The notes below the pieces were generated by a model. The model was given only the letters and a program-made list of their open reading frames with translations. It did not search any database and was not told where the DNA came from. DNA of 60,652 nt, taken from the IMG/VR virus record IMGVR_UViG_3300044630_001263, positions 1 through 60,652 of that record; one strand, given 5' to 3'. A program made the position numbers and the translations under genes. The first letter of the stretch is position 1. Each line of letters starts with the position of its first letter. This DNA comes from a virus. Shown one piece after another: positions 19,375 through 60,652 of the stretch.

Positions 19375-22300
19375 ATGGCACCATTATCAGGTAAACAACA
19401 AAGAGAGTACCTCAAGTTCCAGAATAAAGAAGCTCGTGAAGCGGTTAAAATGGAACTTGACGAAGGTCGTAAACAACAATTACATGAGATTAAACTTCAA
19501 GAAGCAGCCGCAAAAGCTAATCAAGGTTTAGGTCATAAAGAACAAGTTAATAATGCTAAACTTAAAGACATGGGTATTCCTCCTGCTAAGATGAATAAAC
19601 AAAAGTTAGGTATTCCAACACAAAACCCATTGGCAGGTACTGGTATGTTTAAACAAGGTCAACGTAGCCTTGCTCAAGCTCCTATCTTCCAAGCACAAGG
19701 CACTGATACAGTCCCTGCTATGCTTACTCCCGGAGAAGCAGTTATCCCAGCTCCAGCAGCACAAAACCCTAAGAACAAAAAAGCTATTAAGCGTATGGTT
19801 CAAGAAGGTCGTAAGGCTAATCGTCTTCGTGATGGTGCTGTTGATGTGCGCTATTCAGATGCTCCTGGACAGGCTAAGTATCACATGGACGGTACCAGTG
19901 GTGTACCCTCATTAGCATATCGTCATCCAGACGTACCCGGATCTTCGTTTAATGATGGTACAATGAGTGTACCTGACTTTAGTCGTGGTTCATCTGCTCA
20001 GGCAAACTATAACAATGGTACCTATGGTGTTGTGCCTCAGCAAGTTCAACAAGCTGTAGGCTATAACAACGGTAATGAAAATGTATCTTACATGGATAGG
20101 TTCCTTAACTTTATTGGTGGTCAAAAGATACCCGAACAACAACCTGTTGTTGCTCCGTTAGCTGCTCCAGCTTCAGACTTTAATACTGTTATTGAAAAAG
20201 TATTTCAAAGGGAATATCCAAGTGAAGATAAGGCTTATCATGTAGTTAAAGGAGATAAGGGCGGTCCAACTAAATATGGTATCAGCCAAAGAGCTTATCC
20301 TAATCTTGATATTAAAAATCTTACTAAAGAGCAAGCAATTGAAATTGCTAAAAGAGATTATTGGGATAAAAATAAAATAGACGAATTAGATCCTGCATTG
20401 CGTGAAATTCATTTTGATACTGCTTTTAATAAAGGAAACAGTGCTGCTAAGACTTTGTTGAAACGTTCTGGTGGTGACCCAACTAAATATCTAGATGAGC
20501 GTCAAAAGTATGCAAATGAAATTGTAAAAAGTGACCCTTCACAAAAGAAATTTCAAAAAGGTTGGTCTAACCGAGTTGGTGATCTCCGTAAGGTAGCTGA
20601 AACCGCTACAGATGTTTTGATTCCTTCAGCACAAGCTGGTACATTACCAACTGCAGAAGTACCTTCAGCAAGTGCAACTAAAGCTCCAGTTCCTCCCTTA
20701 AGTAATATTCCTACAGGTCGTGAAGTTTTAATTGCTAAACAAGATTTAGCTACAAGTACTAATCCTCGGGTTATTCAAGCGGCTAAAGATGTTTTGGCAA
20801 AAGCTAACCAAGCTATTCCAACATTAGCAGATACTAGAGCACCTATTTTTGATGTTACTAATGGTGTAACTAAACCTGTTAATTTATTTAACCAAGATCA
20901 AAAAGATTTAATAAGGCTCAGTGAAATTATTAATGACCCAAGTATTACTGCTAATGATAAAAAATGGGCTTATACAGAAATAGATCGTATTAAAAGAAAT
21001 AATCCTTTAGAAGTACCTACAGCTAGTTCAGTACCTACTGTTGTTTCTGATACAGATACTAATAAAGAAATTCCTAAACCAGTAAATGTATTAGACAATC
21101 AACAAGCAATGGCTAATGATCGTGAATTTAATACGTCTCTTAGTACTACTTCAGAGATCCCTACCTTAGAAGGTAATGGTTTAAAACCAGGAGACAAAGA
21201 CAGGTTTAATATGCTTGGCTTAGAGTCAAAGAAAGAGCTTGATAGGGTTAGCGAAGAAGTTAAACGAGTAACACAAATGCAAGGAACGCCTGAAGAAAAA
21301 CAAGGATTCCTTGCTAAAGCTTTGGAAGGTATTTTTGGACCTAAAGGTTTATTTAGTGATAAAGAACTTATTCGTTTTGGTATATTAGCTGCTGGTGGTA
21401 TGCTTACTGGTGGTTCTGTTGGTGGTTCTTTGCGTGTTGCTGGTTTAAATACACTTCAAGCAGCTGATAGACGTCAATCTGAAGAAGCTTCTGCTGCTAA
21501 ACAACAAGCTCAAATAGATGCTTATAATGCAAGACAAGATAAACAATTAACAGCTACTGCTGCAGCTAATGCTCGTAAAGATCAGCAATCATTGTATAAC
21601 AACCTAATTAAATCTGCTCAAGATATAGGTCAGATAAGCCCAGAGGTTTCAGCACAACTTTATAGAGCAAGTTTTGCTGGCAAATTTGGTGATATCGAAA
21701 GTGTATTAAACACAGATAAGTTTGCCACACCTCAGTATCGAGCTGGATTAAAACCAACTGATAAGCCTTCTACTTTTATTCAAGAAGGTTTTACTACGCA
21801 CAATGAAATGTACAGGGATCCTAAAGATCCTAATTTATTAATTTCAATTAGCAGGGGTCCAGATGGTAAGTCAGTTATTTCTAGAGTACCTGCTAAAGGA
21901 TATCGTGAAGTAACATCTACTGCAGATACTGTAGCAGAAAAAGAAAGACAATTTAAAGATACAAATTTAAGTGCTCGTTTGTTTGGTGTAGATGACAAGA
22001 AAAATAAAGGTATTTATTTTGATTTATCTAAGCAAGATGCTGTTGGGCAATTAAAAACATGGCAGAATCAACAACGTAAATTAAATTTACCAGACGACTA
22101 CACTCAATTTTCAGAGCAAATTAACCATGCTTTAGATATTGCAGCTAAAACGGGTGAACGTAAACCTCACGTAGGTAAAATGCTAGATATGCTTGTTATT
22201 AATAGTACTGCATTAACTAATAATGATATTATTATTGATTCTACTACTAAGAAAATGATTGAGCCGGGTAAACTTGGTAAGCTAACTGAAGATGTTAACT

Positions 22301-22542
22301 TGTTTAATGAAAAGAAATTAGGTAAAGAAGCTGACAAAAAGAAAGTTCTAGCTGCTTCAAATGCCTTTATTAATAAAGTTTCAGAAGGCTACAATGCTCC
22401 CGGAGATAAGCTTTCTCAGCTTCAACTAGCCGAAAAGGTTGGTAGAGATAATCCTATGTTTAACAAAATCAAAGAAGCACCAAACCCTTATTGGGGTTAT
22501 GTGTATTACCAGATGGCTATTGACAAACCTAAAAAGGAATAA
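19375..22542 (+). CDS. Large ejection protein with GH108-like muramidase domain
   Basis: A 1055-residue protein. The N-terminal 60 residues are a charged coiled coil. GTDTVPAMLTPGEAVIPA (about residue 110) is a motif common in phage tail proteins. Residues about 268-370 match glycoside hydrolase 108: a candidate catalytic Glu in FQREYP, then GDKGGPTKYGIS, LTKEQAIEIAKRDYW and HFDTAFNKG. A second coiled-coil and Gly-rich stretch follow. The domain would cut peptidoglycan during DNA entry, as T7 gp16 does with a different fold. The residue after the Glu is Tyr rather than the usual Gly, so activity is not certain. Confidence 0.75.
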   Translation: MAPLSGKQQREYLKFQNKEAREAVKMELDEGRKQQLHEIKLQEAAAKANQGLGHKEQVNNAKLKDMGIPPAKMNKQKLGIPTQNPLAGTGMFKQGQRSLAQAPIFQAQGTDTVPAMLTPGEAVIPAPAAQNPKNKKAIKRMVQEGRKANRLRDGAVDVRYSDAPGQAKYHMDGTSGVPSLAYRHPDVPGSSFNDGTMSVPDFSRGSSAQANYNNGTYGVVPQQVQQAVGYNNGNENVSYMDRFLNFIGGQKIPEQQPVVAPLAAPASDFNTVIEKVFQREYPSEDKAYHVVKGDKGGPTKYGISQRAYPNLDIKNLTKEQAIEIAKRDYWDKNKIDELDPALREIHFDTAFNKGNSAAKTLLKRSGGDPTKYLDERQKYANEIVKSDPSQKKFQKGWSNRVGDLRKVAETATDVLIPSAQAGTLPTAEVPSASATKAPVPPLSNIPTGREVLIAKQDLATSTNPRVIQAAKDVLAKANQAIPTLADTRAPIFDVTNGVTKPVNLFNQDQKDLIRLSEIINDPSITANDKKWAYTEIDRIKRNNPLEVPTASSVPTVVSDTDTNKEIPKPVNVLDNQQAMANDREFNTSLSTTSEIPTLEGNGLKPGDKDRFNMLGLESKKELDRVSEEVKRVTQMQGTPEEKQGFLAKALEGIFGPKGLFSDKELIRFGILAAGGMLTGGSVGGSLRVAGLNTLQAADRRQSEEASAAKQQAQIDAYNARQDKQLTATAAANARKDQQSLYNNLIKSAQDIGQISPEVSAQLYRASFAGKFGDIESVLNTDKFATPQYRAGLKPTDKPSTFIQEGFTTHNEMYRDPKDPNLLISISRGPDGKSVISRVPAKGYREVTSTADTVAEKERQFKDTNLSARLFGVDDKKNKGIYFDLSKQDAVGQLKTWQNQQRKLNLPDDYTQFSEQINHALDIAAKTGERKPHVGKMLDMLVINSTALTNNDIIIDSTTKKMIEPGKLGKLTEDVNLFNEKKLGKEADKKKVLAASNAFINKVSEGYNAPGDKLSQLQLAEKVGRDNPMFNKIKEAPNPYWGYVYYQMAIDKPKKE

Positions 22543-22544
22543 AT

Positions 22545-25500
22545 ATGGATCTAAGACCATTATCTGAAATTCCAGATGACAAACTTCTTATAACAAATGA
22601 GAAAGGACAAGATGTTTCTGTAAAGCCTCATGATGCAGATACATACTATACGGATGCTGGTCTTGGAAAACGTATTGTAGGTTTTGATGCTGCAGAGGTC
22701 CCCAAAATAACTGAGACAGGGGGATTCTCTGCAGGATCTTCTTTGGGTTTAGCCCAGAGTGCTGCTACTAAACAAGTATTAAAAGACTACGGTTTTAATC
22801 GTGAAATTATTGTTGGTAAAGACGAATACAAGCGTGACTTAGTTAAGCTAGTTAATCCTCAAGGTGAAACAGCAGAAAACTTTTTGTTAAGAAATCGTAT
22901 TGTACAACCTACAAAGTATACATCCGACAAAGATATGATTGATAGATCATTTCAAATCTTTCAAGATGCAATGATTCAACATGAACAAAAAACTCCAGTT
23001 CAAAAAGCAAGAGAGTTAGTTGAAGCTACTTTATCTAGCGGTACTATGGTACCCAGATTACAAGCTAATACTGTAGAAGAGTTTCAAGACTATACTAAGG
23101 CTACAAGCAATAAAGGTTTAGCTGAACAAGAACAAATGATTAAAGATCTTGAGAAGAGAATACAATCTCCTAAGATCAACGAGTTACAAAAACAAGATTA
23201 TTTAAATCAACTAAATAAGCTAAAAGAAAACTATCAATACAACCTTAACTTACCTAAGAACATGTATGTAGATTCCTTAGAGGGATTCCGACAAAAAGGT
23301 GCTTATGGTACTATGGCAGAGTTTGGTAGGGCTTTAGACTTAGGTTGGATAGCAGTAGATAATAGCGCTGCAAACTTTCTTCAATGGTCAGGTGACTTAG
23401 TTAAGTCTAAACCATTAATGCAGTACGGTAAAGACTGGGAGTTTGATAATAAGAGAGCTAGACGTCTTGTAGACATTTCTGCTGGTGATAGAGATATTAC
23501 TGGTGGTACTGTTACCTCTCTTGATGATGTTGAAAAGGATTTTAGTAAGGTATTTAAATTCCTTGGTACCTCTGTATTACAGTATGGTCCTCAAATGGCG
23601 GTAATGATTGGCGGCTCTGTTGCTGGTGGTTTAGCAGGTGGTCCAGCAGGAGCATTTGTTGTACCTATGGCAATGGGTATTGCTGATGTGTATGGTGAAA
23701 TGCCTGACAATGAAAAAGATCCTTACATGGCGGCTGCTATTGGTAGCGCTGTTGGTCTTGTTGACCGTTTTGGTTTTGCTAAAGGCTCAATTAAAGGTTC
23801 AGACCTACTAACTAAAAAGGGTTTAGCTGAAGTATCTTCTAAGATAGCGGCATCTAAAGGCATCTCTGTTCCTGAAGCAACAAATCTTTTGCATAAAGAA
23901 ATGATTGGCATTACTAAAGATTATGCTTTAATTGCAAAGAGTGTTGCAGCAGATCAGTTAGCTAGCAAACAAAATTTATTAGACTTGATGCTACAGATAA
24001 ATAAGTATGCAGGTAAAGAAGCTTTAACAGAAGCTATTCAAGAATCAATTCAATATGCTGGTATTAGAGGGACAACCTCTTTAGACTTTGATTGGTCAGA
24101 GCTATACAAGCGTACTAAAGAAGCGGCTATTGTTGGTGGTATTTTAGGTGGTACATTTAGTGCTCCTGGAGCGATGATAGATAGAGCTAACTTTAATCAG
24201 CAACTTAATATGCTTGCTGGTATTGAAACAAAACCTTTAACTCGTAATACTGCTATGGAGCAGGAAGAAATTGCTCGCAACGGTACTAAACTTGATGATG
24301 TTCAACTTGCAAATAAATTAAGAAACTATAGCAAGTCAGGCGGTAAACCTGTTAATACATTATCAGATTTAATTATGCCCGGAACTACCCCTAATACTTT
24401 ATGGCAAGACTTTAATAGCTTGTTAACTAATGGTGGGTTGTTTAGCCAAACAAGAGATAACAATTTAGCACAATATACTCAATATGAAGGTGGTAGAGAG
24501 ATTGCTGGTTTGTTTGATGCTAACAGTGTTCGTGGTGTATACTCAGGTATGTCACCATTTAAACGTATACACTCTATTGCTAACAGCGTTATGTCTTTGT
24601 TTCCTAATAGCGCAGAGAAAAGAAAATTATTTAATACAGATAATAACAAAGACATTGGTGAAATACTTTTAGAATCTTATAACAATGGATTGCAACATCA
24701 AGGTGCTTTAGAATACAGAGCAAAATTAGATACAATGGGTCAGGCATTAGCAGATACTATTGATGGTCTTGGTAACAATACTGGTTGGTCTTCTACTGAG
24801 ATTAGACAACCTGATTTCTTTTTAAAGAATCAAATTGTAGATCCTAATTTGGTTAGAGCTAATGCCGATGAGTTTATTAAAACTATTGAACAGAATTACG
24901 TGTCTAAGGGTTTTCCTGGGGGTAAAGTTAATAGGACTTTCTTAGAAGACTTAGCTACTCGTATATCTGAAAACATGACTTATCGTGAAATGAAAGACTT
25001 AAAAGATCTTGGTATGCTTGATAGCCCTGTTTTAAATAAATTTAGGTCTAAAGACGTAGAGCATAATGCTACTCGTTTAGTTGAAATGGTTTCAAGATCC
25101 GCAGTTAAGAATACTATCTTTGGTTCTAATGGAGAAGTAGTAGCTAAAGGTATTGCTAAGATGCTGGATGCTAATCAAATTACAGAGCAAGAAGCTAGTC
25201 AACTTGCGATGAACGTTGATCAAATGATTAAATCTTTTGATGGTAATCTAAATCAACCACAGAATCCAGTAATTAAAGGTGCAACAGATAATCTTACATT
25301 TACTACAATGATGGTGTACATGGACACTTCTTTGTTTGCTAACTTAGCTGAAGTTGTTTACGGTTCTTTAGGTCTATCACCTAAACAAATGGTTAAATAC
25401 TTTGGTTTAGTAAGTAAAGAATTTGCTTCAGATGTTGTAGCTAAGTTTGCTCAAGCTGGTAACAAGATAACTGGTGGTAAGATACCATCATTAGAAGAAC

Positions 25501-26489
25501 GTGAAATGTCAAAGAACGTGTCTATGCTTCAGCATACAGGTCACTTTGGTAAGATGAACGATATTGCTTTTAATGTTGGTGCTAATATTAATACACAGGC
25601 TAAACGTAATCTAAGTAAGATTATGTTTAAATTTAACCTTGTTGAGTCAGCAACTAACGCAGCTCGTGCAGCTCGTGGTGCTATTGCTTCAGATGAGATT
25701 AATTATTTAACTAGTATTATTGCAGAGTCTCCCAATAACAATGATGTAACACGCTGGGCAAGAGATCGATTAAGTTATTACCGTATGGATCCAGATAAGA
25801 TGGTAGATATCTACAATCAATTAGGTCAAGTATCGGTAGAGACACTTAATAATTTATCTGAAGGCGATCCTTTATATCAAGACTTAGCTAACCAATTAAC
25901 TAATGGTATAACAAACTTTATTGACGAATTCTCTGCAAGACCTGAGCCAGGAAGTTCTGCTAAATTATTTGATGACCGTAGGTTTGATTTGTTTACTCAA
26001 TTCAAAAAGTTTACTTGGCATTTTACTGCAAACATTATTCCTCAGATGTGGAATATGTATATTAAACGCGGTGAAGTTAAATATTCTTATAGCACATTCT
26101 CATTGTTAATGTTATCATTTGCAATGGCTTATGCTGGTATGTATATGAAGTCAATGCTTCGTGGTGAAGAACCAGAAGATGATGAAGTAAAATTTAATAA
26201 AAGATTAAAGCAAGCCTTTGATTACTCTGTTGGTGGTGCTTATACTGATGTGTTAAACACAGTAACAGAAGCTACTGCTGAAAGACCGGACGGGTCTCTT
26301 AAAAATAGTCCATTCAAAACCTTTGTATCACAGTCCCCTTCAATAAACTTATTGTTTAATACAGGAAAAGATGTGTACAAGGTTGCTACCGAGGAGGAAG
26401 ATGCCAAGGCAAAAACCAACTTGATCCGTAGAATACCCGTGTTTGGAGAAATTCCAGCTGTGCGGGACATGTATGTAAAGGAAAAATAA
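22545..26489 (+). CDS. Giant ejection protein with SNase-like N-terminal domain
   Basis: A 1314-residue protein, almost exactly the size of T7 gp16. Residues about 25-125 read as a staphylococcal-nuclease fold: HDADTYYTD, KRIVGFDAAEV, a helix AQSAATKQVLKDYG, then DEYKRDLVKLV and ENFLLRNRIV. All five positions matching SNase D21, R35, D40, E43 and R87 carry the right residue (D32, R43, D48, E51, R97). A hydrophobic stretch near residues 360-400 and another near 1190-1210 could insert in membranes. The middle is helical and unrecognised. It is sandwiched between the muramidase and polymerase-like genes. Confidence 0.7.
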   Translation: MDLRPLSEIPDDKLLITNEKGQDVSVKPHDADTYYTDAGLGKRIVGFDAAEVPKITETGGFSAGSSLGLAQSAATKQVLKDYGFNREIIVGKDEYKRDLVKLVNPQGETAENFLLRNRIVQPTKYTSDKDMIDRSFQIFQDAMIQHEQKTPVQKARELVEATLSSGTMVPRLQANTVEEFQDYTKATSNKGLAEQEQMIKDLEKRIQSPKINELQKQDYLNQLNKLKENYQYNLNLPKNMYVDSLEGFRQKGAYGTMAEFGRALDLGWIAVDNSAANFLQWSGDLVKSKPLMQYGKDWEFDNKRARRLVDISAGDRDITGGTVTSLDDVEKDFSKVFKFLGTSVLQYGPQMAVMIGGSVAGGLAGGPAGAFVVPMAMGIADVYGEMPDNEKDPYMAAAIGSAVGLVDRFGFAKGSIKGSDLLTKKGLAEVSSKIAASKGISVPEATNLLHKEMIGITKDYALIAKSVAADQLASKQNLLDLMLQINKYAGKEALTEAIQESIQYAGIRGTTSLDFDWSELYKRTKEAAIVGGILGGTFSAPGAMIDRANFNQQLNMLAGIETKPLTRNTAMEQEEIARNGTKLDDVQLANKLRNYSKSGGKPVNTLSDLIMPGTTPNTLWQDFNSLLTNGGLFSQTRDNNLAQYTQYEGGREIAGLFDANSVRGVYSGMSPFKRIHSIANSVMSLFPNSAEKRKLFNTDNNKDIGEILLESYNNGLQHQGALEYRAKLDTMGQALADTIDGLGNNTGWSSTEIRQPDFFLKNQIVDPNLVRANADEFIKTIEQNYVSKGFPGGKVNRTFLEDLATRISENMTYREMKDLKDLGMLDSPVLNKFRSKDVEHNATRLVEMVSRSAVKNTIFGSNGEVVAKGIAKMLDANQITEQEASQLAMNVDQMIKSFDGNLNQPQNPVIKGATDNLTFTTMMVYMDTSLFANLAEVVYGSLGLSPKQMVKYFGLVSKEFASDVVAKFAQAGNKITGGKIPSLEEREMSKNVSMLQHTGHFGKMNDIAFNVGANINTQAKRNLSKIMFKFNLVESATNAARAARGAIASDEINYLTSIIAESPNNNDVTRWARDRLSYYRMDPDKMVDIYNQLGQVSVETLNNLSEGDPLYQDLANQLTNGITNFIDEFSARPEPGSSAKLFDDRRFDLFTQFKKFTWHFTANIIPQMWNMYIKRGEVKYSYSTFSLLMLSFAMAYAGMYMKSMLRGEEPEDDEVKFNKRLKQAFDYSVGGAYTDVLNTVTEATAERPDGSLKNSPFKTFVSQSPSINLLFNTGKDVYKVATEEEDAKAKTNLIRRIPVFGEIPAVRDMYVKEK

Positions 26490-29400
26490 ATGTCTTTAAT
26501 GAATGTGCGACCTAGAACAGGTCCATTAAGTGGTGGTGAAGCAGAACCTGCTTTAGTTCCTGAGAGTGTCCAACGACAAATTGAAGTAAACCCCATACCA
26601 AGAAGTATGGAATTAGTTCAACCTGAAGGTACTCAAATACAGTATCAATCTGATATGTATCAAGTGCCTAGGTATTCAGTAGAAGAGGTACCTACAGGAA
26701 GTGACTTTGGTGCAGGAGCTACTTCTACTACTGTACCTATTGACTATGCTTCTGAAGTTCCTGTTGATATTGAAGAACAAGGTATTCGTTTGGCTGAGCC
26801 AACGAGTCTTCCTAACTTTAATACACCAGATGAAGCTTATGAAACAATTAACAAAGCGATTCAAGACTTAGGTCCAGTGTATTCTTCTTTTAAAGTTGAT
26901 ACCGAGAAAAGAAAAACTTGGAGTGGTAATGACGGTAATGAAGCTATTGCTTTATCTAAACATTCTAATGACTTTGCTGAAAGACTTTTTAATGGTGAAG
27001 GTATTTTTGGTAATGAAAACCTAAGTAATCTTTATCAAAATGATTTAGGTATTACTGAGGAAAACTCTGCTGCTTTAGGTGGTGGGCTTATGCTAGCTGC
27101 TACAGGTGCTTTGTCTAATGTAAAATCAAGAAAATATAAAGACTTTATTGAAGACAAAAAGACTGGTAGTATAGAACCTACTTACGAAGATATTATTGAA
27201 AATCCTTTTAACATTTCTAAAGGAATGTCTAATGAGGAACGTAAAGAAGTTTATTCAGAAGCAAATCAAGCTATCAGGTCTGATCCTAATAGTCAACCTG
27301 TTATGCAGTCATTTGTAACTGATATCCAAGATCGTATTGGTAAAAACTTTTCACGACCAGACACTCCCGGTGGATCAGCTACTCCAAGAAAAGTTAGTAG
27401 AGAAATTGCTGCAGCAGAAGCTTACAGTTTATACGACAAAGGCTATATTGATATTGGTAAAGATAAGAATGGGGTTTATTACCCATTGTTGACTGCTAAA
27501 GGTGAAGACATGCTTGCAGACACCAAACATGCTGCTGCTCTTTATGATGTAGAATTACGTCATATGAATGTTAATGAGCCACTTATTCGTTCTCAATCAA
27601 CTCCTCCTGCTAGTTTTAGATTTGCAGGTAAGCAACAGATGTTTGCTCCTAACTTAAAATTCAAAGACAATTTAGGTATGGATGTTATTGATGCGGCTAT
27701 TGCTATTCAAGCAGCAGTAGGTTTTAAAGTTAACCCTATTAACCTTAGTTTGTTAGAGCAAATGGCTAGCAGTGCTTACTCAGTTGGTCCAAACTTAAGT
27801 CCTAATTTATCTACAGCAGTATTTAGTTCCTCAGGTAATTTAATTAACGCTGGTAATAATATTAGTAGTGGTAATGCTGGCTTTGTTAACCAAACCTTTA
27901 CTGTTCCTTTTGCTTATTCGGATAGCCCTTACTCTAAAACAATTGCAGACCTTTCATTAGGTAAAGTATCTGAGAAAGTCAAAGAGCTTGTTGCATCAGG
28001 TATGCCCCAAGGGAAGATAGCAGAGACTGTTGGTGATATTAATACTCGTAAGCTACAGCAAGTTAATAAACATTTAAGTGATTACTTAACTAGTAATTTA
28101 TCAAAGGGTATTCGATTTAATATGATGCAGCGTTCGCCTAGCACTAATCGAATGTTCCCATTGGCTACAGATATTAACACAACTAACCATAGCGGGACCA
28201 TTAGACCCGGTGTTGACTTCGGTTTAAAGCTTACATCTACTATTCGTGGATCATTACCCGATACATTTAGCCGAGTAAAGGCTATTGCAAGCAAAGTCTA
28301 TGATACTAAAAATAAATCAGGTATTGCTGTTGGTGAGTCTATCCATCGTGCTTTATGGGCATTACCAAAAGAAGATCGAGTGTTGTTAGATGCTATGTAT
28401 CAGATCAGTAAGTTTGCACAAGACTTTGGATTTATTAGCTTTAGAAACTTTAGACCAACACCTAAAGATTATATTGAAGCTTTAACCCCAGACGTCCTTC
28501 AAAAGATGGCGGCATTTGGTACTAAGTTTAAATCATGGTCTCAAGGTAACTTACCTAAAACAAATGAACAAGCTGACCTTCCTCCAGCATTTAACAATGA
28601 ATTAAAAGCATTCTTTGAAAAGAAAGAATGGGGACCCCGAATCCGTAATGCTATTATGGCTTCTGATATTGTTAATGCTGCTAAGGCTGGTGGAGGTGTT
28701 GTTACATTAGACGCACCTATTGAGACTGATGCTTCTCAATCTAATGCTTTTATTATTTCCATGCTAATTGGTGATTTAAAAGTTGCTAATATTCTTGGTG
28801 GTTATTTTGGTGGTGATCAAAATTATGCTGATGTAAGAAAAGAATATAAAGACTTACGTAATCTTGTATCATCAACAGTTAACACAGATATTGAAGATAC
28901 TTTAAGAGGTACAGACGAGGCAGGTAAGAAAGAAGCATTCCAAAATTTAATGGATGAAGCTAAGCTAATGTACGGTAGCGAGTTTGATAAGATTTATGCT
29001 CGAGGTATTGTTGTTGCTGGTCTTTACGGTAAACACCCTGAATATATGTTTACTGAAGTTGAGACTATGCTTAGTAAACTAGCAGGTCTTAGCGACAAGT
29101 TAGATAACATTGAAGCAATGTACCCTAATCGTAAAGAATTTCTTGAAGACTTGTGTTCTATATTTAGCACATCAATGAGAAATCACTTAAAGAATTTACA
29201 AGGTTGGCAACAAGTTGCTTCGTCTATTGCAAGTCTTAAGTCTGCATTTAATGGTTCTTCTAGAATTAAATCATTTGGAAATACATATATTGATTTAGGT
29301 TCAAGCTATGCTACAATGGTGGAAGATGAATCTAATACCATTAAAAATATAATGGGTCTTCCTGATGAAGTAAAGAACTTATCAGGTAGAGCATATGATA

Positions 29401-30338
29401 TTGCAGCCCCAGGAAGTGTAGGCAAGTCTCTTGCAGACCTTCGTGAGATGAAAGATCGACTCAAAGAACTTAATGTTAATATCGAAGACTTTGAAGAGCA
29501 ATTGTTTATGTCAGCTTTTGCTGGGGACAAAGCTCGTAAGGCTTTACCTGTTGTGTTGATTCAATCAGGTGACGCATTCCAAATGGCTTCTGCTATTGTG
29601 TATGCTAATCAAGATAACCCAGATAAAGAACCTTTGAATGTCTATAGTATTCATGATGCTACAGGTACAGCACCAGGATCTACATTGTTGATGTATAATG
29701 CTTACAATAATATTTCACCATATATTATGGCTAAGAATAGTAAGAATGTGTTACAAGATCTTGAACAATCTATGGTTGATGATTTCAAAAATGCAATTAC
29801 TGAAGTTAATAAGTCTGGTAAAGCAAACATAGGTACACTGGGTAAGTATAAAGCTATGGGTGGATACTTCGATAGAATGTATAACTCCTTGTTTATGAGA
29901 TCTAGAGATGAACTTAGAGGTCGAGTTGATTTAGATCCAGACTATACCAAGATATCTAAAGAATATAACAAAGCAGTTATTGATTTAGCAATTTCATTTG
30001 GATGGTTACCTCCAGTTAATAGGAATGAGAAAAAGAAACCTAATAACATTGTTACACCACAACAATTTGCTTTGTTGTCTAGATTAGCTATAACACATGC
30101 TGGCTGGAATGAAAATAATCAAAGTACATTCCCTTCATTAGATAAATTAGTTGAACAACATAACCAAAAAGTTTCTGATTTTAATAAAGCTAATAGGAAA
30201 AATGCTGCAGTTAAACCTAAAAGATATTTTAAAATGGATTCAAGAAACCGTTATAAGTTTGAAAAGTTTATTGCTAACAATGAAACATTTGTTAAAGAAA
30301 TGGCTTCTAATCAAAATCAAATTGTAAACGCTAAATAA
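26490..30338 (+). CDS. Virion RNA polymerase-like giant protein (N4 vRNAP type)
   Basis: A 1282-residue protein showing single-subunit RNA polymerase motifs. A DxxGR-region-like segment is NRMFPLATDIN (R554). Motif A is IETDASQSNAF (D747). Motif B is K834-x3-R838-x7-Y846-G847, the same spacing as T7 R627/K631/Y639-G640 with the two basic residues exchanged. A segment LPVVLIQSGDAFQMAS precedes motif C, SIHDATGTAP (D1056). A-to-B and B-to-C distances (91 and 218) fit between T7 and N4 values. The N-terminal 300 residues are unlike polymerases. It is last in the ejection-protein operon, so it is probably packaged in the virion and injected. Confidence 0.75.
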   Translation: MSLMNVRPRTGPLSGGEAEPALVPESVQRQIEVNPIPRSMELVQPEGTQIQYQSDMYQVPRYSVEEVPTGSDFGAGATSTTVPIDYASEVPVDIEEQGIRLAEPTSLPNFNTPDEAYETINKAIQDLGPVYSSFKVDTEKRKTWSGNDGNEAIALSKHSNDFAERLFNGEGIFGNENLSNLYQNDLGITEENSAALGGGLMLAATGALSNVKSRKYKDFIEDKKTGSIEPTYEDIIENPFNISKGMSNEERKEVYSEANQAIRSDPNSQPVMQSFVTDIQDRIGKNFSRPDTPGGSATPRKVSREIAAAEAYSLYDKGYIDIGKDKNGVYYPLLTAKGEDMLADTKHAAALYDVELRHMNVNEPLIRSQSTPPASFRFAGKQQMFAPNLKFKDNLGMDVIDAAIAIQAAVGFKVNPINLSLLEQMASSAYSVGPNLSPNLSTAVFSSSGNLINAGNNISSGNAGFVNQTFTVPFAYSDSPYSKTIADLSLGKVSEKVKELVASGMPQGKIAETVGDINTRKLQQVNKHLSDYLTSNLSKGIRFNMMQRSPSTNRMFPLATDINTTNHSGTIRPGVDFGLKLTSTIRGSLPDTFSRVKAIASKVYDTKNKSGIAVGESIHRALWALPKEDRVLLDAMYQISKFAQDFGFISFRNFRPTPKDYIEALTPDVLQKMAAFGTKFKSWSQGNLPKTNEQADLPPAFNNELKAFFEKKEWGPRIRNAIMASDIVNAAKAGGGVVTLDAPIETDASQSNAFIISMLIGDLKVANILGGYFGGDQNYADVRKEYKDLRNLVSSTVNTDIEDTLRGTDEAGKKEAFQNLMDEAKLMYGSEFDKIYARGIVVAGLYGKHPEYMFTEVETMLSKLAGLSDKLDNIEAMYPNRKEFLEDLCSIFSTSMRNHLKNLQGWQQVASSIASLKSAFNGSSRIKSFGNTYIDLGSSYATMVEDESNTIKNIMGLPDEVKNLSGRAYDIAAPGSVGKSLADLREMKDRLKELNVNIEDFEEQLFMSAFAGDKARKALPVVLIQSGDAFQMASAIVYANQDNPDKEPLNVYSIHDATGTAPGSTLLMYNAYNNISPYIMAKNSKNVLQDLEQSMVDDFKNAITEVNKSGKANIGTLGKYKAMGGYFDRMYNSLFMRSRDELRGRVDLDPDYTKISKEYNKAVIDLAISFGWLPPVNRNEKKKPNNIVTPQQFALLSRLAITHAGWNENNQSTFPSLDKLVEQHNQKVSDFNKANRKNAAVKPKRYFKMDSRNRYKFEKFIANNETFVKEMASNQNQIVNAK

Positions 30339-49914: not shown

Positions 49915-49936
49915 CTAGTCGGATCCTAATAGATAA
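49915..49936 (+). promoter_or_regulatory. Candidate phage RNA polymerase promoter
   Basis: Reads CTAGTCGGATCCTAATAGAT, differing from the core by one base (GGATCC for GGTACC). It lies in the divergent gap between ssb and the plus-strand small-terminase gene and points at the latter. Confidence 0.68.
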
Positions 49937-49970
49937 TTGTTATCTAACAGAAACAGAACAGGAGAACAGA

Positions 49971-53442: not shown

Positions 53443-53539
53443 TTAATCTCCTTGAGCTATGACAACCTGTAACCGACAGGCACGGACGAGCAAGACGCTC
53501 TCGGAAGACCCCGACAAAGGAGCCAACCGAGAAAGCCCT
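53443..53539. other. Short A-poor spacer after the A-free gene
   Basis: About 97 bases between the A-free gene and the membrane protein gene. The minus strand remains poor in A but less strictly so than the gene body. It carries the AAGGAG site for the next gene at its end. No gene is assigned. Confidence 0.5.
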
Positions 53540-54178
53540 TCAAAGAGACACAGCACAGAAGTAACCAGACGAACCAGCACGAGCACGACACACAAAGCCA
53601 GAACGACCAGGAGCAGCCCACAAGTCAACAGACACACCAGAGTCAGCAGCAACAGCAACCGCAGACACCAAAGAAGAGAAGGCAGCAGGAGACAACCCAG
53701 AGGACAGACACAAGAAAGGCAAAGAGAAGCCAGCAACGTCCACCGACAACACACCACCAGACACCAACCAACCACGAACAACCACACCAGAGGCAGCAGG
53801 AACAAAGCCCGAAGAAGGAACACCAAGGCAAGAGGCAGGAACACCAGCACCAGAAGCCAAAGGACACACAGGAGCAACAGCCGCCAAAGCACGACCAGCA
53901 CGAGCCAACACAGCCAAACGAGCAGGAGAGACACCAGCAGCACGAGCACGAGACCACACACCACGAGCACGAGCCAACAAGTCAGCAACAGCCGCAGGAG
54001 AAACAGCAGGAGAGGCACGACCAGAAGCCGCACACAAACCAAGCAACACCACAGACAAACGGCAAGACCGAACCAAAGAAGAAACCGAAGAAGACAGAGC
54101 CGAACGAACAGCACCAGAAGCAACAGGAGACACAGCACCGAGGACGGGCAAAGAAGCAGCAGAGAAAGAGAAGGACAT
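53540..54178 (-). CDS. Adenine-free early gene, product with a reduced residue alphabet
   Basis: A 212-residue product from the ATG at 54178 (a GTG at 54331 would extend it to 263). The sense strand has almost no A; only Asp GAC, Tyr TAC, the ATG and the stop carry one. The longer form has no Lys, Glu, Asn, Gln, His, Ile or Thr. Because stops need A, open frames here mean nothing by themselves. The support is codon regularity in this frame only: by hand count GCT is 35 of 43 Ala codons, CGT 14 of 15 Arg, TTG 18 of 24 Leu. Ala/Val/Gly/Ser-rich, with a helical middle (ADLLARARGVWSRARAAG) and beta-like end. No family recognised. It would be the first early gene of the minus block. Confidence 0.6.
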   Translation of the reverse strand: MSFSFSAASLPVLGAVSPVASGAVRSALSSSVSSLVRSCRLSVVLLGLCAASGRASPAVSPAAVADLLARARGVWSRARAAGVSPARLAVLARAGRALAAVAPVCPLASGAGVPASCLGVPSSGFVPAASGVVVRGWLVSGGVLSVDVAGFSLPFLCLSSGLSPAAFSSLVSAVAVAADSGVSVDLWAAPGRSGFVCRARAGSSGYFCAVSL

Positions 54179-54331
54179 AACAAACCCCAAAGAGCGCAGG
54201 AAGGAAAGCCGACAAGCACCGCGCCAAGCGCAAGCCGACAGGGAAGGAAGGACGGGACGCCCACCGAGCAACCGAGCACCCCGAGAACAGGGGGGGCAGG
54301 GAAAACCAGGAGGGGCGAACCCAACCAACAC
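53740..54331. other. T-depleted tract (plus strand)
   Basis: In these 592 bases the plus strand has only two T (53982 and 54178). T-free runs are 242, 195 and 153 bases long. The tract is GC-rich against an AT-rich genome. The right boundary is sharp: normal composition resumes at 54332. All six frames are open because no stop codon can form, so frame length carries no coding information. Confidence 0.95.
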
Positions 54332-54506
54332 TTGATTCTTTTAAACACACACAAAGACTTCTACCCACGACATTCTCCAAAAACAATTCTCCAAAGGCTT
54401 CCCCATAGTAGAGCAGGGGGTACCCGAAAAAAGTATTCGAATTATTACATTTATGAATATACTAGTCGGTACATAATAGAGAAACATTTTTTATACAAGT
54501 GGAAAT
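54332..54506. promoter_or_regulatory. Divergent control region between early and late blocks
   Basis: The 175-base gap separates the minus early block from the plus terminase operon, so it should carry early promoters for the minus block. I see AT-rich stretches (ATTATTACATTTATGAATATAC) but no convincing -35/-10 pair for host polymerase. ATTCTCCAAA occurs twice. An 8-bp palindrome GGGTACCC lies at about 54418-54425. If the virion polymerase starts early transcription, its promoter would be expected here. Confidence 0.5.
54462..54485 (+). promoter_or_regulatory. Candidate phage RNA polymerase promoter
   Basis: Reads CTAGTCGGTACATAATAGAG, one change from the core motif. It points to the large terminase gene, 22 bases further on, and would drive the packaging and head operon. 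Confidence 0.75.
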
Positions 54507-56147
54507 ATGAAACAACAAAACAATTCTGAGAAGCTAGAGGCTCTGAGGGAATTAAAGAAGCGAGAGAAATTAGCTTCATACAAGAATAACTTTGAGTTAT
54601 TCGCCAAAGAACAAATTAAAATCTTACCCAAGGACTCCTCCAAGGGATTTCAATTTTTTGAATTCAATGAAGCTCAAAAGATTGTGAATGAAGCTCTTGA
54701 GAAACAACTCAAGGAGACGGGGAGAGTCAGAGCTATTATTCTTAAAGCTCGACAGATGGGTTTAAGTACATACACGACAGGAAGGGTATTCTGGAAGAGT
54801 TACTTTAATGCGTATAATAAGTCAGTAGTTATGGCTCATGATGCGGCTACTAGTGATGCGCTATTTAGTATGTCCAGGAATACTATTTACAATATGTCTG
54901 ATACCTTCAGACCAGTATTGAAGAAGTCAAATGCAAAAGAGATTATGTTTGAGCATAATGATTCGGGGTACAGGCTGTATACAGCTGGTGCTCCTGAGGC
55001 GGGTAGGGGAACAACTCCTACGATTGCTCACTTGTCTGAAGTTGCATTTTGGGGTCATGATGAAAAGATCCTTGCAGGACTATTCCAAGGTATCTCCCAA
55101 GCGGATGGTACAGAGGTTATTCTTGAGAGTACAGCGAATGGGGTAGGTAACTCATTTCACAGGTTATGGCAGGGAGCTGTAAAGGGTGAGAATGATTATG
55201 TAGCTATCTTTGTTCCGTGGTACTTGATGACAGAGTATCGGAGGAAGGCTCCTGAGGGTTTTGAAAGAACAACAGATGAGGAAGTATTAGTCACTAGGTA
55301 TAGCTTAGATGATGATCAGTTATATTGGAGAAGGTTAAAGATTGCGGAGGGTGGTGAGGATAAGTTCCGTCAGGAGTATCCCGCGACACCTGAGGAAGCA
55401 TTTATTGTTTCTGGCTCTAATGTGTTTAACATTGAGAAGTTAAGTAAGCTTGTTCCTCAACCTATATTAGCCAAGAGAGAGTTTAACTTTGAATCCTCTA
55501 TGATGGAGGACTTAAAGGATGGCTCGATTGAGATATTTAAGTATCCTACTTTTGAAGATGCCTTTGCTATCGGTGCTGACGTTGCTTTGGGTGTTGGCAA
55601 GGATTATTCTACAGCCGTGGTTATCAATGCCAAGAGGGAAGTGTGCGCAGTTTATCGTAGTAATACGATTGATCCTAGTCAGTTTGGTGATCTATTATTT
55701 TACCTAGGAAGGTACTACAATAATGCTTTGTTAGCTGTAGAGTCTAACTCTATGGGTATAGCAACATTAAACAGGTTAACTCAAATGGGTTATGTGAACA
55801 TGTACTATCAGACTAAGATGGCGAATGTATCCAAGGAAGAGGGTAGTAGGATTGGCTGGAGAACTACTTCAGCGTCTAAACCTGCTATTATTGGGTTCTT
55901 AAAGAATGCCATTGAACAGGAAGATATCTGGATACCCTCCAGGATTATCATCGGTGAACTTATGAACTACGTAGCAGACGACTCTGGAAAGACAAACGCT
56001 ATTGTCGGTCAGAATGATGATACTGTTATTGCCCTTGCTATTGCGCTTGAAGTAATCAGAACTCATGGTGACAGACTAACAAATACAACAGTACCTTTCT
56101 CACAGAAGATAGGTAACTACAGACCAGTAGAAACTACTTGGATATGA
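54507..56147 (+). CDS. terL: Terminase large subunit
   Basis: A 546-residue packaging motor. The ATPase has a Walker A-type ILKARQMGLST (residues 78-88) and a Walker B region at TPTIAHLSEVAFW. The nuclease domain has AIGADVALGVGKDYS (Asp), LLAVESNSMG (Glu) and QNDDTVIALAIAL (Asp). It cuts and pumps DNA into the portal-bearing head. No overlap with the next gene; a ribosome site GGAGAA follows. Confidence 0.93.
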   Translation: MKQQNNSEKLEALRELKKREKLASYKNNFELFAKEQIKILPKDSSKGFQFFEFNEAQKIVNEALEKQLKETGRVRAIILKARQMGLSTYTTGRVFWKSYFNAYNKSVVMAHDAATSDALFSMSRNTIYNMSDTFRPVLKKSNAKEIMFEHNDSGYRLYTAGAPEAGRGTTPTIAHLSEVAFWGHDEKILAGLFQGISQADGTEVILESTANGVGNSFHRLWQGAVKGENDYVAIFVPWYLMTEYRRKAPEGFERTTDEEVLVTRYSLDDDQLYWRRLKIAEGGEDKFRQEYPATPEEAFIVSGSNVFNIEKLSKLVPQPILAKREFNFESSMMEDLKDGSIEIFKYPTFEDAFAIGADVALGVGKDYSTAVVINAKREVCAVYRSNTIDPSQFGDLLFYLGRYYNNALLAVESNSMGIATLNRLTQMGYVNMYYQTKMANVSKEEGSRIGWRTTSASKPAIIGFLKNAIEQEDIWIPSRIIIGELMNYVADDSGKTNAIVGQNDDTVIALAIALEVIRTHGDRLTNTTVPFSQKIGNYRPVETTWI

Positions 56148-56705: not shown

Positions 56706-58961
56706 ATGAGTGATACAAGTAGAGATATCATCCGCTTTGTGGATAGATACAAAGATCCGGTAGGAGATAATGAACTCCTAGCGATGATCGAACAGGGTGT
56801 AATGAACTCTGTTGGTGACTTCTTGAACAGTTCCGACCTAGCTCGTGAACGGCAGAAGGCTACCTACGAATACGGTATGATGCCGCAATTCCACCTGATT
56901 CCTCAGGGTGCTTCACAGATTGTCTCTTCAGACACTGTAGAGGCTATTGAGGGATACACAGCTATTCTTGCTGAACTTATGTTTAACAACAATAAGATTG
57001 CAAGGTTTATTCCAGCAGGAAATTCCCCTAAGGCTTTCCATGAGGCTAAAGTAGCTTCTGACCTTGTTAACTATGCTATCTTCAAACAGAATCCTGGTTG
57101 GGAAGTATTAAATACATGGGTTAAGTCTGCTCTGTTGTGGAAGAATAGTATTATCCGTTGGGAATATATTGAAGACTTTGACTATCAGTTTGAAGAGTTT
57201 GACTCTATCGGTCAAGAGAATCTTGATCTTTTGTTAGCTGATGAGAATGTAGAAATTATTGGTGATCTCAAGTATGACCAAGAATTAGATACAGACGAAG
57301 AAGGTAATGCTGTCTACAAGATGGTATACAAAGATGTTCGTCTTAAAAAGAAACATAACAAGACAAGGGTCTTGATTAAGAACGTACACCCAGAATGTTT
57401 CCGTATTACACGGGATGCACACTCACTAGACGATGCAGCATTCGTGGGTATTCAGATCGATATGACTCGTTCTGAAGTGAGAAAGTTTTTCCCTGACATA
57501 GCAGAGAATATTGACTGGGACGCCATTGGAGACGGTAGCTACGATTGGGCTACCAAGTACACCGAAGAGCAAGCAGCTCGTAAGCGTCTAGTTGGTGAAG
57601 AGTACTGGCTTGGGGGAAATTCACGGGAGCTATTCCCGTCAGAAGCTAATCGACAACTCACTGTTATTGAGTGTTGGTTACGTGTAGACCGTGATGGTGA
57701 TGGTATCGCTGAACTAAAGCACTTTATTATTGCTGGTTCAACAATCCTTATGGAAGAGGATTGTGACATGATTCCATTGGCGACTCTTTGTCCCTTTGAA
57801 GTACCTCACGAGTTCTTTGGGTTGTCTGTGGCTGATATGATTCGCCCAACAACCTTGGCTTCAACAGCTATTATGCGTGGTTTTATTGAGAATGTTTACT
57901 TAACTAACTACTCACCTAAGCTTGCTGATCCTAATGTTGTAGACTTCAGTGCTCTACAGAACATGAAGCCAAAACAGATTATTGCTACTAATGGTAATCC
58001 TAATGGAGCTGTAGCCGCTTTGACACCAGACACTATCAGTACTGGTACTGTACCTGTTCTTGAATTGTTACAACTACATAAAGAACAAGCTACAGGTTTG
58101 TCTAAAGCTGCTCAAGGCTTGAATGATACGCTATATGTCTCTGGTAATTCAGAGGAGAAGATGCAACGGGCTATGTCTGCTGCACAAGTGCGTATTCAAT
58201 TTATGGCACGTAGATTTGCTGAAACAGGGTTTAAGAGACTCTGTGAAGGTGTATACAAGACTATGCGGGATAAACTGCGTGGTAAAGAAGTTAACTACTA
58301 TGACCAGAATGATTTGTTTAAGTCTGTGGATCCAGGAACACTACCAAGTAACCTGATGCTCTATATTGATGTTGATGTTGGTGAAAACAGTAACAGCAAT
58401 ATCATGAAGAAAATGAATACTGTTGGTCAACAGATTATTCCAGCACTGCAACAAGCAGGAGCTGGTGGAGCTGTTAATCCACAGGCTGCAGTAAATATCG
58501 CATGTAAAGCAATTGAGTCTATGGATCTTGATCCTTTAGACTTCCTTGTTGACTACACTGATCCTAAGTTCATTGAACAAGCAATGAAGTCTAGGGAAGG
58601 TGAGATGGCGGCTGCAGAGAAACAAAGACAACTTGAAGAACAAGTTAAGATGATTGACATAGCACAGAGGCAAGCAACCCTTGACCTCACTAATGTACAA
58701 GCTAAAAATGCCATGCAAGATAACACCAAACAACTTATGGTTTCTTTGGATAAGAGTTATCAAGAGTGGAGTAAGCTCTATATTCAGGCGGCTAAAGAAG
58801 GTGTTGAACTACCTCCTAAACCTGATGTTAAAGAACTCCTTGCTATGGCTAAGGCATTCATCGATGCTGACTCGCATAATGATGCAAGTAAACCTCAAGG
58901 TAGCCAAGCACCACCGCAACAGGCAGGTCCTGCTGCTGCTGGTGAAAACCCAATGATGTAA
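56706..58961 (+). CDS. Portal protein
   Basis: A 751-residue portal. I chose the ATG at 56706, which has AAAGG 7 bases upstream, over one 33 bases earlier. GMMPQFHLIPQGASQIVSSD, FIPAGNSPKAFHEAKVASDL and the YDVYED-like helical wing, followed by the crown part (LYIDVDVGENSNSNIMKKMN) match P22/SU10-type portals. A Gln-rich coiled coil and a disordered end (PQGSQAPPQQAGPAA) follow. It forms the twelve-subunit DNA gate and docks with terminase and adaptor. Confidence 0.88.
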   Translation: MSDTSRDIIRFVDRYKDPVGDNELLAMIEQGVMNSVGDFLNSSDLARERQKATYEYGMMPQFHLIPQGASQIVSSDTVEAIEGYTAILAELMFNNNKIARFIPAGNSPKAFHEAKVASDLVNYAIFKQNPGWEVLNTWVKSALLWKNSIIRWEYIEDFDYQFEEFDSIGQENLDLLLADENVEIIGDLKYDQELDTDEEGNAVYKMVYKDVRLKKKHNKTRVLIKNVHPECFRITRDAHSLDDAAFVGIQIDMTRSEVRKFFPDIAENIDWDAIGDGSYDWATKYTEEQAARKRLVGEEYWLGGNSRELFPSEANRQLTVIECWLRVDRDGDGIAELKHFIIAGSTILMEEDCDMIPLATLCPFEVPHEFFGLSVADMIRPTTLASTAIMRGFIENVYLTNYSPKLADPNVVDFSALQNMKPKQIIATNGNPNGAVAALTPDTISTGTVPVLELLQLHKEQATGLSKAAQGLNDTLYVSGNSEEKMQRAMSAAQVRIQFMARRFAETGFKRLCEGVYKTMRDKLRGKEVNYYDQNDLFKSVDPGTLPSNLMLYIDVDVGENSNSNIMKKMNTVGQQIIPALQQAGAGGAVNPQAAVNIACKAIESMDLDPLDFLVDYTDPKFIEQAMKSREGEMAAAEKQRQLEEQVKMIDIAQRQATLDLTNVQAKNAMQDNTKQLMVSLDKSYQEWSKLYIQAAKEGVELPPKPDVKELLAMAKAFIDADSHNDASKPQGSQAPPQQAGPAAAGENPMM

Positions 58962-59623: not shown

Positions 59624-60652
59624 ATGAATCTACCACATCTCTCTACCAGTACTCCTGCTTCTGAAATCAGTAGCGCGAGTTTTGATGACGGATCGAATAG
59701 TGCAGACTTGGAAGTGAAGAGCCTTGATGACATTCTACGTAATTCTCCAGCAGCAGAGCTGTTGGGTCTTAGCAAAGAATCTCTACCAAAAGAAGGCGAT
59801 GACGTCCCAAGTCCAGATGAAGTATCGGAAGAAGAAGCCCAAGAAGAGAACGATACCGAGTCTGCAAATGACCTAGATGAAGAAGAAGAGTCAAGTGACT
59901 CTGAAGAAGATAATACAGCTGAGGATGATACGTCTACCCAAAATGCTGACTTACCTTCTGAAGAAGATATTGATTGGGAATACAAGGTACCCGTCACAGT
60001 TGACGGTAAGACTGAGTATGTTACCCTAGAAGAAATCCGTAAGGGTTATTCTACTGACCAACATCTATCTCAAAAGGGGCGTGAATTAGGCGAACTGAAG
60101 AAACAGATCGACCAAGAACGAACTGAAAAGCTACAAGAGATTATTCAATTAGGTACAGTTATTAATGAAGAACTTACCGCAGTTGAAGCAAGTCTCGCAC
60201 AAGAATATCATAAAGTCAAGGCTGAAATCGATAAAGCCCGAGAAGAAGGTGATACCTACACAGCTAGGGAACTCAAAGAGCAACTAGAAGACGTACAGGA
60301 AAAGTACTGGAGAGCACGTAACAAACGTGAAGAACAGACTAAAGCTGTTGTTGAAAAGATTCAAGCTCAACAAATAGAACAACAACAAGTGTTATTGAGA
60401 CAGTATGAGGAAAACATTGTTAACCTCATTCCTGATTACTCAGAAAAAGTTGCTAAAAGTATTCGTGAGTTTGCTATCAAAGAAGGTATTCCAGAACAAC
60501 TACTAGAGGCGGTTTATGACCCCAATGTAGTAAAGTTTATTAATGATTATCGTAAGCTTAAAACAGCTAAAGAAACAGGTGAAGTAAAACGAAAGGCATC
60601 TCCAAACGTGAAGTCCATCCCATCAAAAAAGGGAACTCCGACTTCCCAAAAA
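59624..60652 (+). CDS. Scaffold protein, 3' end cut by window edge
   Basis: 343 codons open to the window edge with no stop. The first third is acidic and disordered (EVSEEEAQEENDTESANDLD). Next is a short conserved segment, DIDWEYKVPVTVDGKTEYVT followed by LEEIRKGYSTDQHL, which is typical of SU10/P22-style scaffolds. A long coiled coil and a basic end (VKSIPSKKG) follow. It should guide capsid assembly and precede the capsid gene that opens the window. Confidence 0.85.
   Translation, partial: MNLPHLSTSTPASEISSASFDDGSNSADLEVKSLDDILRNSPAAELLGLSKESLPKEGDDVPSPDEVSEEEAQEENDTESANDLDEEEESSDSEEDNTAEDDTSTQNADLPSEEDIDWEYKVPVTVDGKTEYVTLEEIRKGYSTDQHLSQKGRELGELKKQIDQERTEKLQEIIQLGTVINEELTAVEASLAQEYHKVKAEIDKAREEGDTYTARELKEQLEDVQEKYWRARNKREEQTKAVVEKIQAQQIEQQQVLLRQYEENIVNLIPDYSEKVAKSIREFAIKEGIPEQLLEAVYDPNVVKFINDYRKLKTAKETGEVKRKASPNVKSIPSKKGTPTSQK

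Follow-up and report, generated by a model that had tools for sequence, protein, structure and literature searches.

The DNA studied here belongs to a short-tailed phage from outside the N4 family and encodes a protein of 1282 residues that has, almost certainly, the fold of a single-subunit RNA polymerase (ssRNAP) and belongs to that superfamily. Taking the evidence jointly, we consider it probable that the protein is a catalytically competent, compact polymerase of the N4 type: it is predicted to be made late, packaged and ejected with the DNA, and to transcribe the early genes. The viral sequence is that of IMG/VR record IMGVR_UViG_3300044630_001263, whose positions 1-60,652 make up the window of 60,652 nucleotides analysed in this work.

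To our knowledge, injected ssRNAPs count as giant proteins and as the mark of N4-like phages. It is fairly probable that the present gene stands for a deeply diverged, new line of virion RNA polymerases that does not belong to Schitoviridae: a naturally 'mini' N4-type enzyme with exchanged lysine and arginine in its O helix, acting as the first of two single-chain polymerases. If so, the particle-packed polymerase would have arisen or spread more widely than thought, and would stand here without the giant accessory domains known from N4 gp50; small, cysteine-poor enzymes would be offered to biochemistry. As the compact form is found both in metagenomes and in the cultured marine phage CRP-7, it can be tested at the bench.

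Table 1 Features of the window discussed in the text, with their positions and the basis of each assignment.
Feature	Coordinates	Strand	Basis
Virion/ejection protein, 1055 aa, glycosyl hydrolase 108 domain, Cys-free	19375..22542	+	PF05838, 3.6e-16
Virion/ejection protein, 1314 aa, Cys-free	22545..26489	+	phrog_6958 virion structural protein, E 2e-4
Gene predicted to encode a compact virion ssRNAP, 1282 aa	26490..30338	+	ORF call; homologue CRP-7 gp33
Polymerase domain, residues 360-1282	27567..30335	+	AlphaFold2 model, pLDDT 79.4, pTM 0.80
S549-R554, counterpart of DxxGR/TxxGR	28134..28151	+	S549, T552 and R554 conserved 18/18
Motif A, E745-x-D747-AS-QSN752	28722..28745	+	D747 ends modelled beta strand; conservation
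Motif B (O helix), K834-x3-R838-x7-Y846-G847	28989..29030	+	Model, conservation; order of the basic pair opposite to T7 and N4
Residues 939-1008, variable low-confidence stretch	29304..29513	+	Assigned by position only, to the place of the promoter-specificity loop
Pre-motif C Q1025-S-G-D1028 and motif C H1055-D1056	29562..29657	+	Turn between strands 1051-1054 and 1057-1060; conservation
Ordinary T7-like RNAP of this phage, 733 aa	34167..36368	-	phrog_414, E 1.2e-98

Gene place, relatives and cysteine content

The gene opens with an ATG directly past the stop codon of the 1314-residue ORF. It is the final gene of a rightward structural block on which the replication block converges, in agreement with the earlier note, which had placed it last in the virion-protein operon. 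It follows two giant proteins, of which one has a glycosyl hydrolase domain; at two related loci (L040 and L043), the counterpart of the 1055-residue protein starts, by eye, like a lytic transglycosylase. An ordinary T7-like RNA polymerase is encoded in the opposing block, next to a primase-helicase, an exonuclease, Pol A and ribonucleotide reductase, which makes the 1282-residue protein the second polymerase of this phage. Motif B of the T7-like enzyme reads K-x3-K, with a lysine at the place of T7 R627. By eye, position 1 of the contig falls within a major-capsid-like gene and position 60652 within a scaffold-like gene, which gives the contig the look of a nearly complete genome that is circularly permuted and was cut at this point.

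A tblastn search of 50,697 phage records returned one relative, gp33 of Roseobacter phage CRP-7, annotated as 'hypothetical protein' (27% identity). In the accessible part of the CRP-7 paper, ORF30 alone is called an RNA polymerase and gp33 stands without assigned function (PMC6918029). About 20 IMG/VR contigs with homologues were found through peptide patterns and one degenerate pattern, VAGLYGKxxxxM, reaching down to 22% identity. With CRP-7 gp33 included, the family spans 22-88% identity, and its full-length homologues 1231-1474 residues; the 20 pattern matches in bacterial genome contigs held no family member. In N4, the virion genes end with gp50, which points towards the replication genes; the same arrangement is seen here, in CRP-7 and in other contigs. 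The T7-like polymerase in the opposing block recurs in 20 other contigs, CRP-7 included.

Cysteine is nearly absent from the family: it occurs twice in 23,755 residues, once each in the 1282-residue protein and in its 88% relative. There is none in the 2,369 residues of the two preceding giant proteins, whose counterparts in relatives are Cys-free as well, and none in the 3,500 residues of N4 gp50. The T7-like polymerases of the same phages carry 76 in 4,644 residues. Such avoidance would suit a protein that passes unfolded through the oxidising periplasm. From the operon place and the near absence of cysteine we infer that the 1282-residue protein is probably packaged in the virion and injected.

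The fold and the kept active site speak for a polymerase, not for its place of action; the protein could then also be an active ssRNAP that is not injected, being made during infection for a later gene class and sitting with the virion genes through late expression. We hold this to be unlikely. The scarcity of cysteine is common to the operon partners and N4 gp50 and is not found in the T7-like polymerases, the relatives keep the last place behind giant virion proteins, and a T7-like polymerase is already present for the later classes.

An injected polymerase, the reading we prefer, would be made late and packed in the capsid alongside the two other giant internal proteins. It would leave the particle with the DNA into the new host and transcribe the early genes ahead of all phage protein synthesis. 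Early transcription would then give the T7-like polymerase and the replication proteins, the T7-like enzyme taking over from there; the injected polymerase may also help to pull the DNA in. N4 gp50 is ejected in this way and transcribes the early genes at once (PMC4496689, PMC12633501).

Predicted fold and conserved active site

Sequence searches of Pfam, PHROGs, NCBIfam and the PDB with the 1282-residue protein gave no significant family match. The sole hint in the sequence libraries was phrog_2051, 'RNA polymerase', over motif C (E 0.011-0.026).

Conservation was counted in 21 distinct members, each site being scored only in those that reach it. D747, K834, Y846 and G847 are invariant (20/20), and so are Q1025, D1028, H1055 and D1056 in all 20 members reaching them and R554 in the 18 members covering its site. 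R838 is kept in 19 out of 20. The exception is a glycine in L053, whose gene is cut off at the locus end, so that its apparent changes in motif C are not real comparisons. Across 14 full-length members, 49 of 903 columns are identical; they include R554, D747, K834, R838, Y846, G847 and D1056. The earlier note had singled out R554, E745-D747, K834, R838, Y846-G847 and H1055-D1056 without any homologue. Each of them is found at its place in the ORF, and their conservation, R838 being the one site with an exception, is thus an independent test that confirms the choice. The segment that the note called DxxGR-like takes the form S-x2-T-x-R in the family; some relatives have TGR there.

Motif B of T7 polymerase is R627-x3-K631, and that of N4 is R-x3-K, an order that we read in seven of ten Schitoviridae vRNAPs. 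The exchange of the two basic residues relative to T7, lysine coming first and arginine second, had been recognized at the outset and is a feature of the family; its K-x3-R puts an arginine at the position of the catalytic lysine. Along with the strong divergence of the sequence, which matches no family, this alteration could speak for a domesticated, catalytically dead polymerase fold, retained as an ejection or DNA-entry protein. Such a fate is distinctly improbable: over the range of 22-88% identity, the family retains both catalytic aspartates, the Tyr-Gly pair and its basic residues, among the invariant columns counted above. We hold the 1282-residue protein to be very probably an active polymerase. 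A working enzyme with the exchanged pair would be informative, while a dead one would favour the structural-protein alternative.

A first AlphaFold2 model (residues 83-1282, pLDDT 63, pTM 0.49) was poor over the N-terminal 360 residues. Its only confident PDB matches were T7 RNAP and mitochondrial RNAP, next to weak ones to family A DNA polymerases; in VIA-align, ssRNAPs filled nearly all of the best 46 rows. Because this model was too weak at motif C, a second one was built with more homologues, covering residues 360-1282 with 22 diverse sequences (scores in Table 1). It shows a right-hand fold. Foldseek returned 59 PDB matches at E<=0.001, the best 50 of the 59 all being single-subunit RNAPs, as are the best 50 rows of VIA-align. 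With the latter, T7 RNAP reached Z 23.0 (510 residues, 4.5 Å), the yeast and human mitochondrial RNAPs Z 14-21, and N4 mini-vRNAP, whose alignment was the longest (593 residues, 4.9 Å), Z 17.8.

According to the secondary structure of the model, D747 closes the motif A beta strand (744-747), the beta turn of motif C holds D1056, and K834, R838 and Y846 stand on one helix, 831-846. The A and C motifs and the O helix would thereby be arranged as in a textbook polymerase. The three observations that, by the earlier note, would have told against its reading concern the fold, the site of the two aspartates and the residues kept by homologues; all three turned out in its favour, the second as judged by secondary structure. 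Residues 939-1008, judging by position, stand at the place of the promoter-specificity loop of ssRNAPs, and their variability would fit lineage-specific promoters.

The palm is common to family A, and the weak matches of the first model could hint at another member of the right-hand superfamily, a DNA polymerase or a primase. This is highly improbable, the best 50 structural matches all being RNA polymerases. In addition, N752, five residues past D747, presumably occupies the place of the steric-gate glutamate of DNA polymerases, and the phage already encodes Pol A and a primase-helicase. Finally, that an ordinary helical ejection protein resembles a polymerase by chance, as the lack of a significant sequence-search match might suggest, has next to no probability, since two models, the profile-profile comparison with shuffled controls and the conservation of residues named in advance agree.

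Candidate promoters and intergenic DNA

Hairpins of the N4 promoter type (3-nt loop) occur in the early region, 30.3-54.6 kb, at chance level (21 against 20.3 expected), and sigma-70-like promoters were at chance level as well. A repeated intergenic element near CGGTACCTAATAGA has six strong sites (12218+, 31993-, 34152-, 43282-, 50497- and 54467+) and a weaker one (49910+). At the strong sites it points at the next gene, terminase, RNR and tRNA being among them. With at most one mismatch, GGTACCTAATAG has six matches, compared with 0-1 in shuffled genomes; in the examined parts of CRP-7 or L017, the element was not found. On account of its TAATAG end, like that of T7-class promoters, and its place before middle and late genes, we assign it to the T7-like polymerase, tentatively, as a candidate promoter.

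Directly after the weak site, at 49930-49946, lies a hairpin with a stem of 7 bp and a loop of 3 nt, as large as those of N4 promoters; it is a single case and may be due to chance. Within the DNA separating the early from the late operons, an 874-nt stretch (53460-54333, +) has only 15 T on the late-sense strand, with T-free runs of up to 242 nt. CRP-7 likewise has T-free DNA upstream of its terminase gene (MK613349, ~57384-57512 and beyond, -), matching in position and orientation. The T-poor stretch of the present phage is open in all three frames, largely because every stop codon contains T, and the ORFs listed there, 53459-54529 for example, may not be genes.

Comparison with N4 virion polymerases and other known systems

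Profile-profile comparison with ten Schitoviridae vRNAPs matched 74-75 columns locally, around motif C, and placed D1056 on the motif C aspartate of N4. The score was 57.2 for the first family profile and 55.0 for the wider one (20 members), against maxima of 21.2 and 19.8 in 60 and 40 column shuffles, respectively. When these phages' own T7-like RNAPs were used instead, the result was not significant. Taken alone, the regions of motif A, motif B and R554 did not rise above shuffles when compared with the N4 profiles, so that it is the motif C region, together with the fold, that carries the sequence kinship with N4. By eye, QSGD before motif C resembles N4 GTGD, and motif A has E-x-D in both. 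Full-length hhalign at a permissive setting gave an unreliable global path, which was not used. With one region and the fold pointing the same way, kinship with the N4 vRNAPs is likely; the N4 likeness proposed in the earlier note is supported by the profile comparison, the gene position and the near absence of cysteine.

As for the hallmarks of Schitoviridae, phrog_2206 (N4-type vRNAP) has no match in the 1282-residue protein, and the other RNAP of this phage is single-chain and T7-like. Alteromonas phages vB_AmeP-R22Y and PT11-V19 encode a vRNAP of 2082-2083 aa plus a second RNAP, the larger one being last in the virion operon (PMC11705849). The vRNAP of V19, a phage related to R22Y, has 2082 aa and is matched by N4 profiles (phrog_2206, 1.4e-19; 9e-9), but the present family, about 800 aa shorter than the R22Y and V19 enzymes, is not. 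For StenR_269, a 'vRNAP' had been put forward on the grounds of size, absence of cysteine and helical content (PMC10747016); it was set aside as evidence of kinship.

With T7 RNAP and phrog_414, the 1282-residue protein shares the fold (Z 23), the order of motifs, the spacing of motif B and the HD of motif C. In contrast to the T7-like RNAPs, with which it has no significant profile match, it is nearly Cys-free and a virion-operon gene, and it stands beside a separate, true T7-like RNAP.

The additional domains of N4 gp50 comprise about 1000 aa at the N-terminus and 1400 aa at the C-terminus, and one of these giant accessory parts inhibits the enzyme. The compact form is a polymerase domain with an N-terminal arm, without such N4-like giant domains. 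Common to N4 gp50 or the Schitoviridae vRNAPs and the present protein are the right-hand ssRNAP fold over 593 residues and an alignable motif C region; gp50 is likewise last in its virion operon, convergent with replication, with a second phage RNAP in the same genome. The two differ in size, 3500 against 1282 aa, with the giant N- and C-terminal domains missing here, and in their motifs, N4 having R-x3-K in motif B and FDG in motif C, and this family K-x3-R and HDA. The partner polymerase of N4 is the heterodimeric RNAPII, whereas here it is a single-chain T7-like enzyme (for N4: PMC4496689, PMC12633501). CRP-7 gp33, finally, is a direct homologue of the 1282-residue protein, with the same motifs, the same gene place and the same T7-like partner RNAP.
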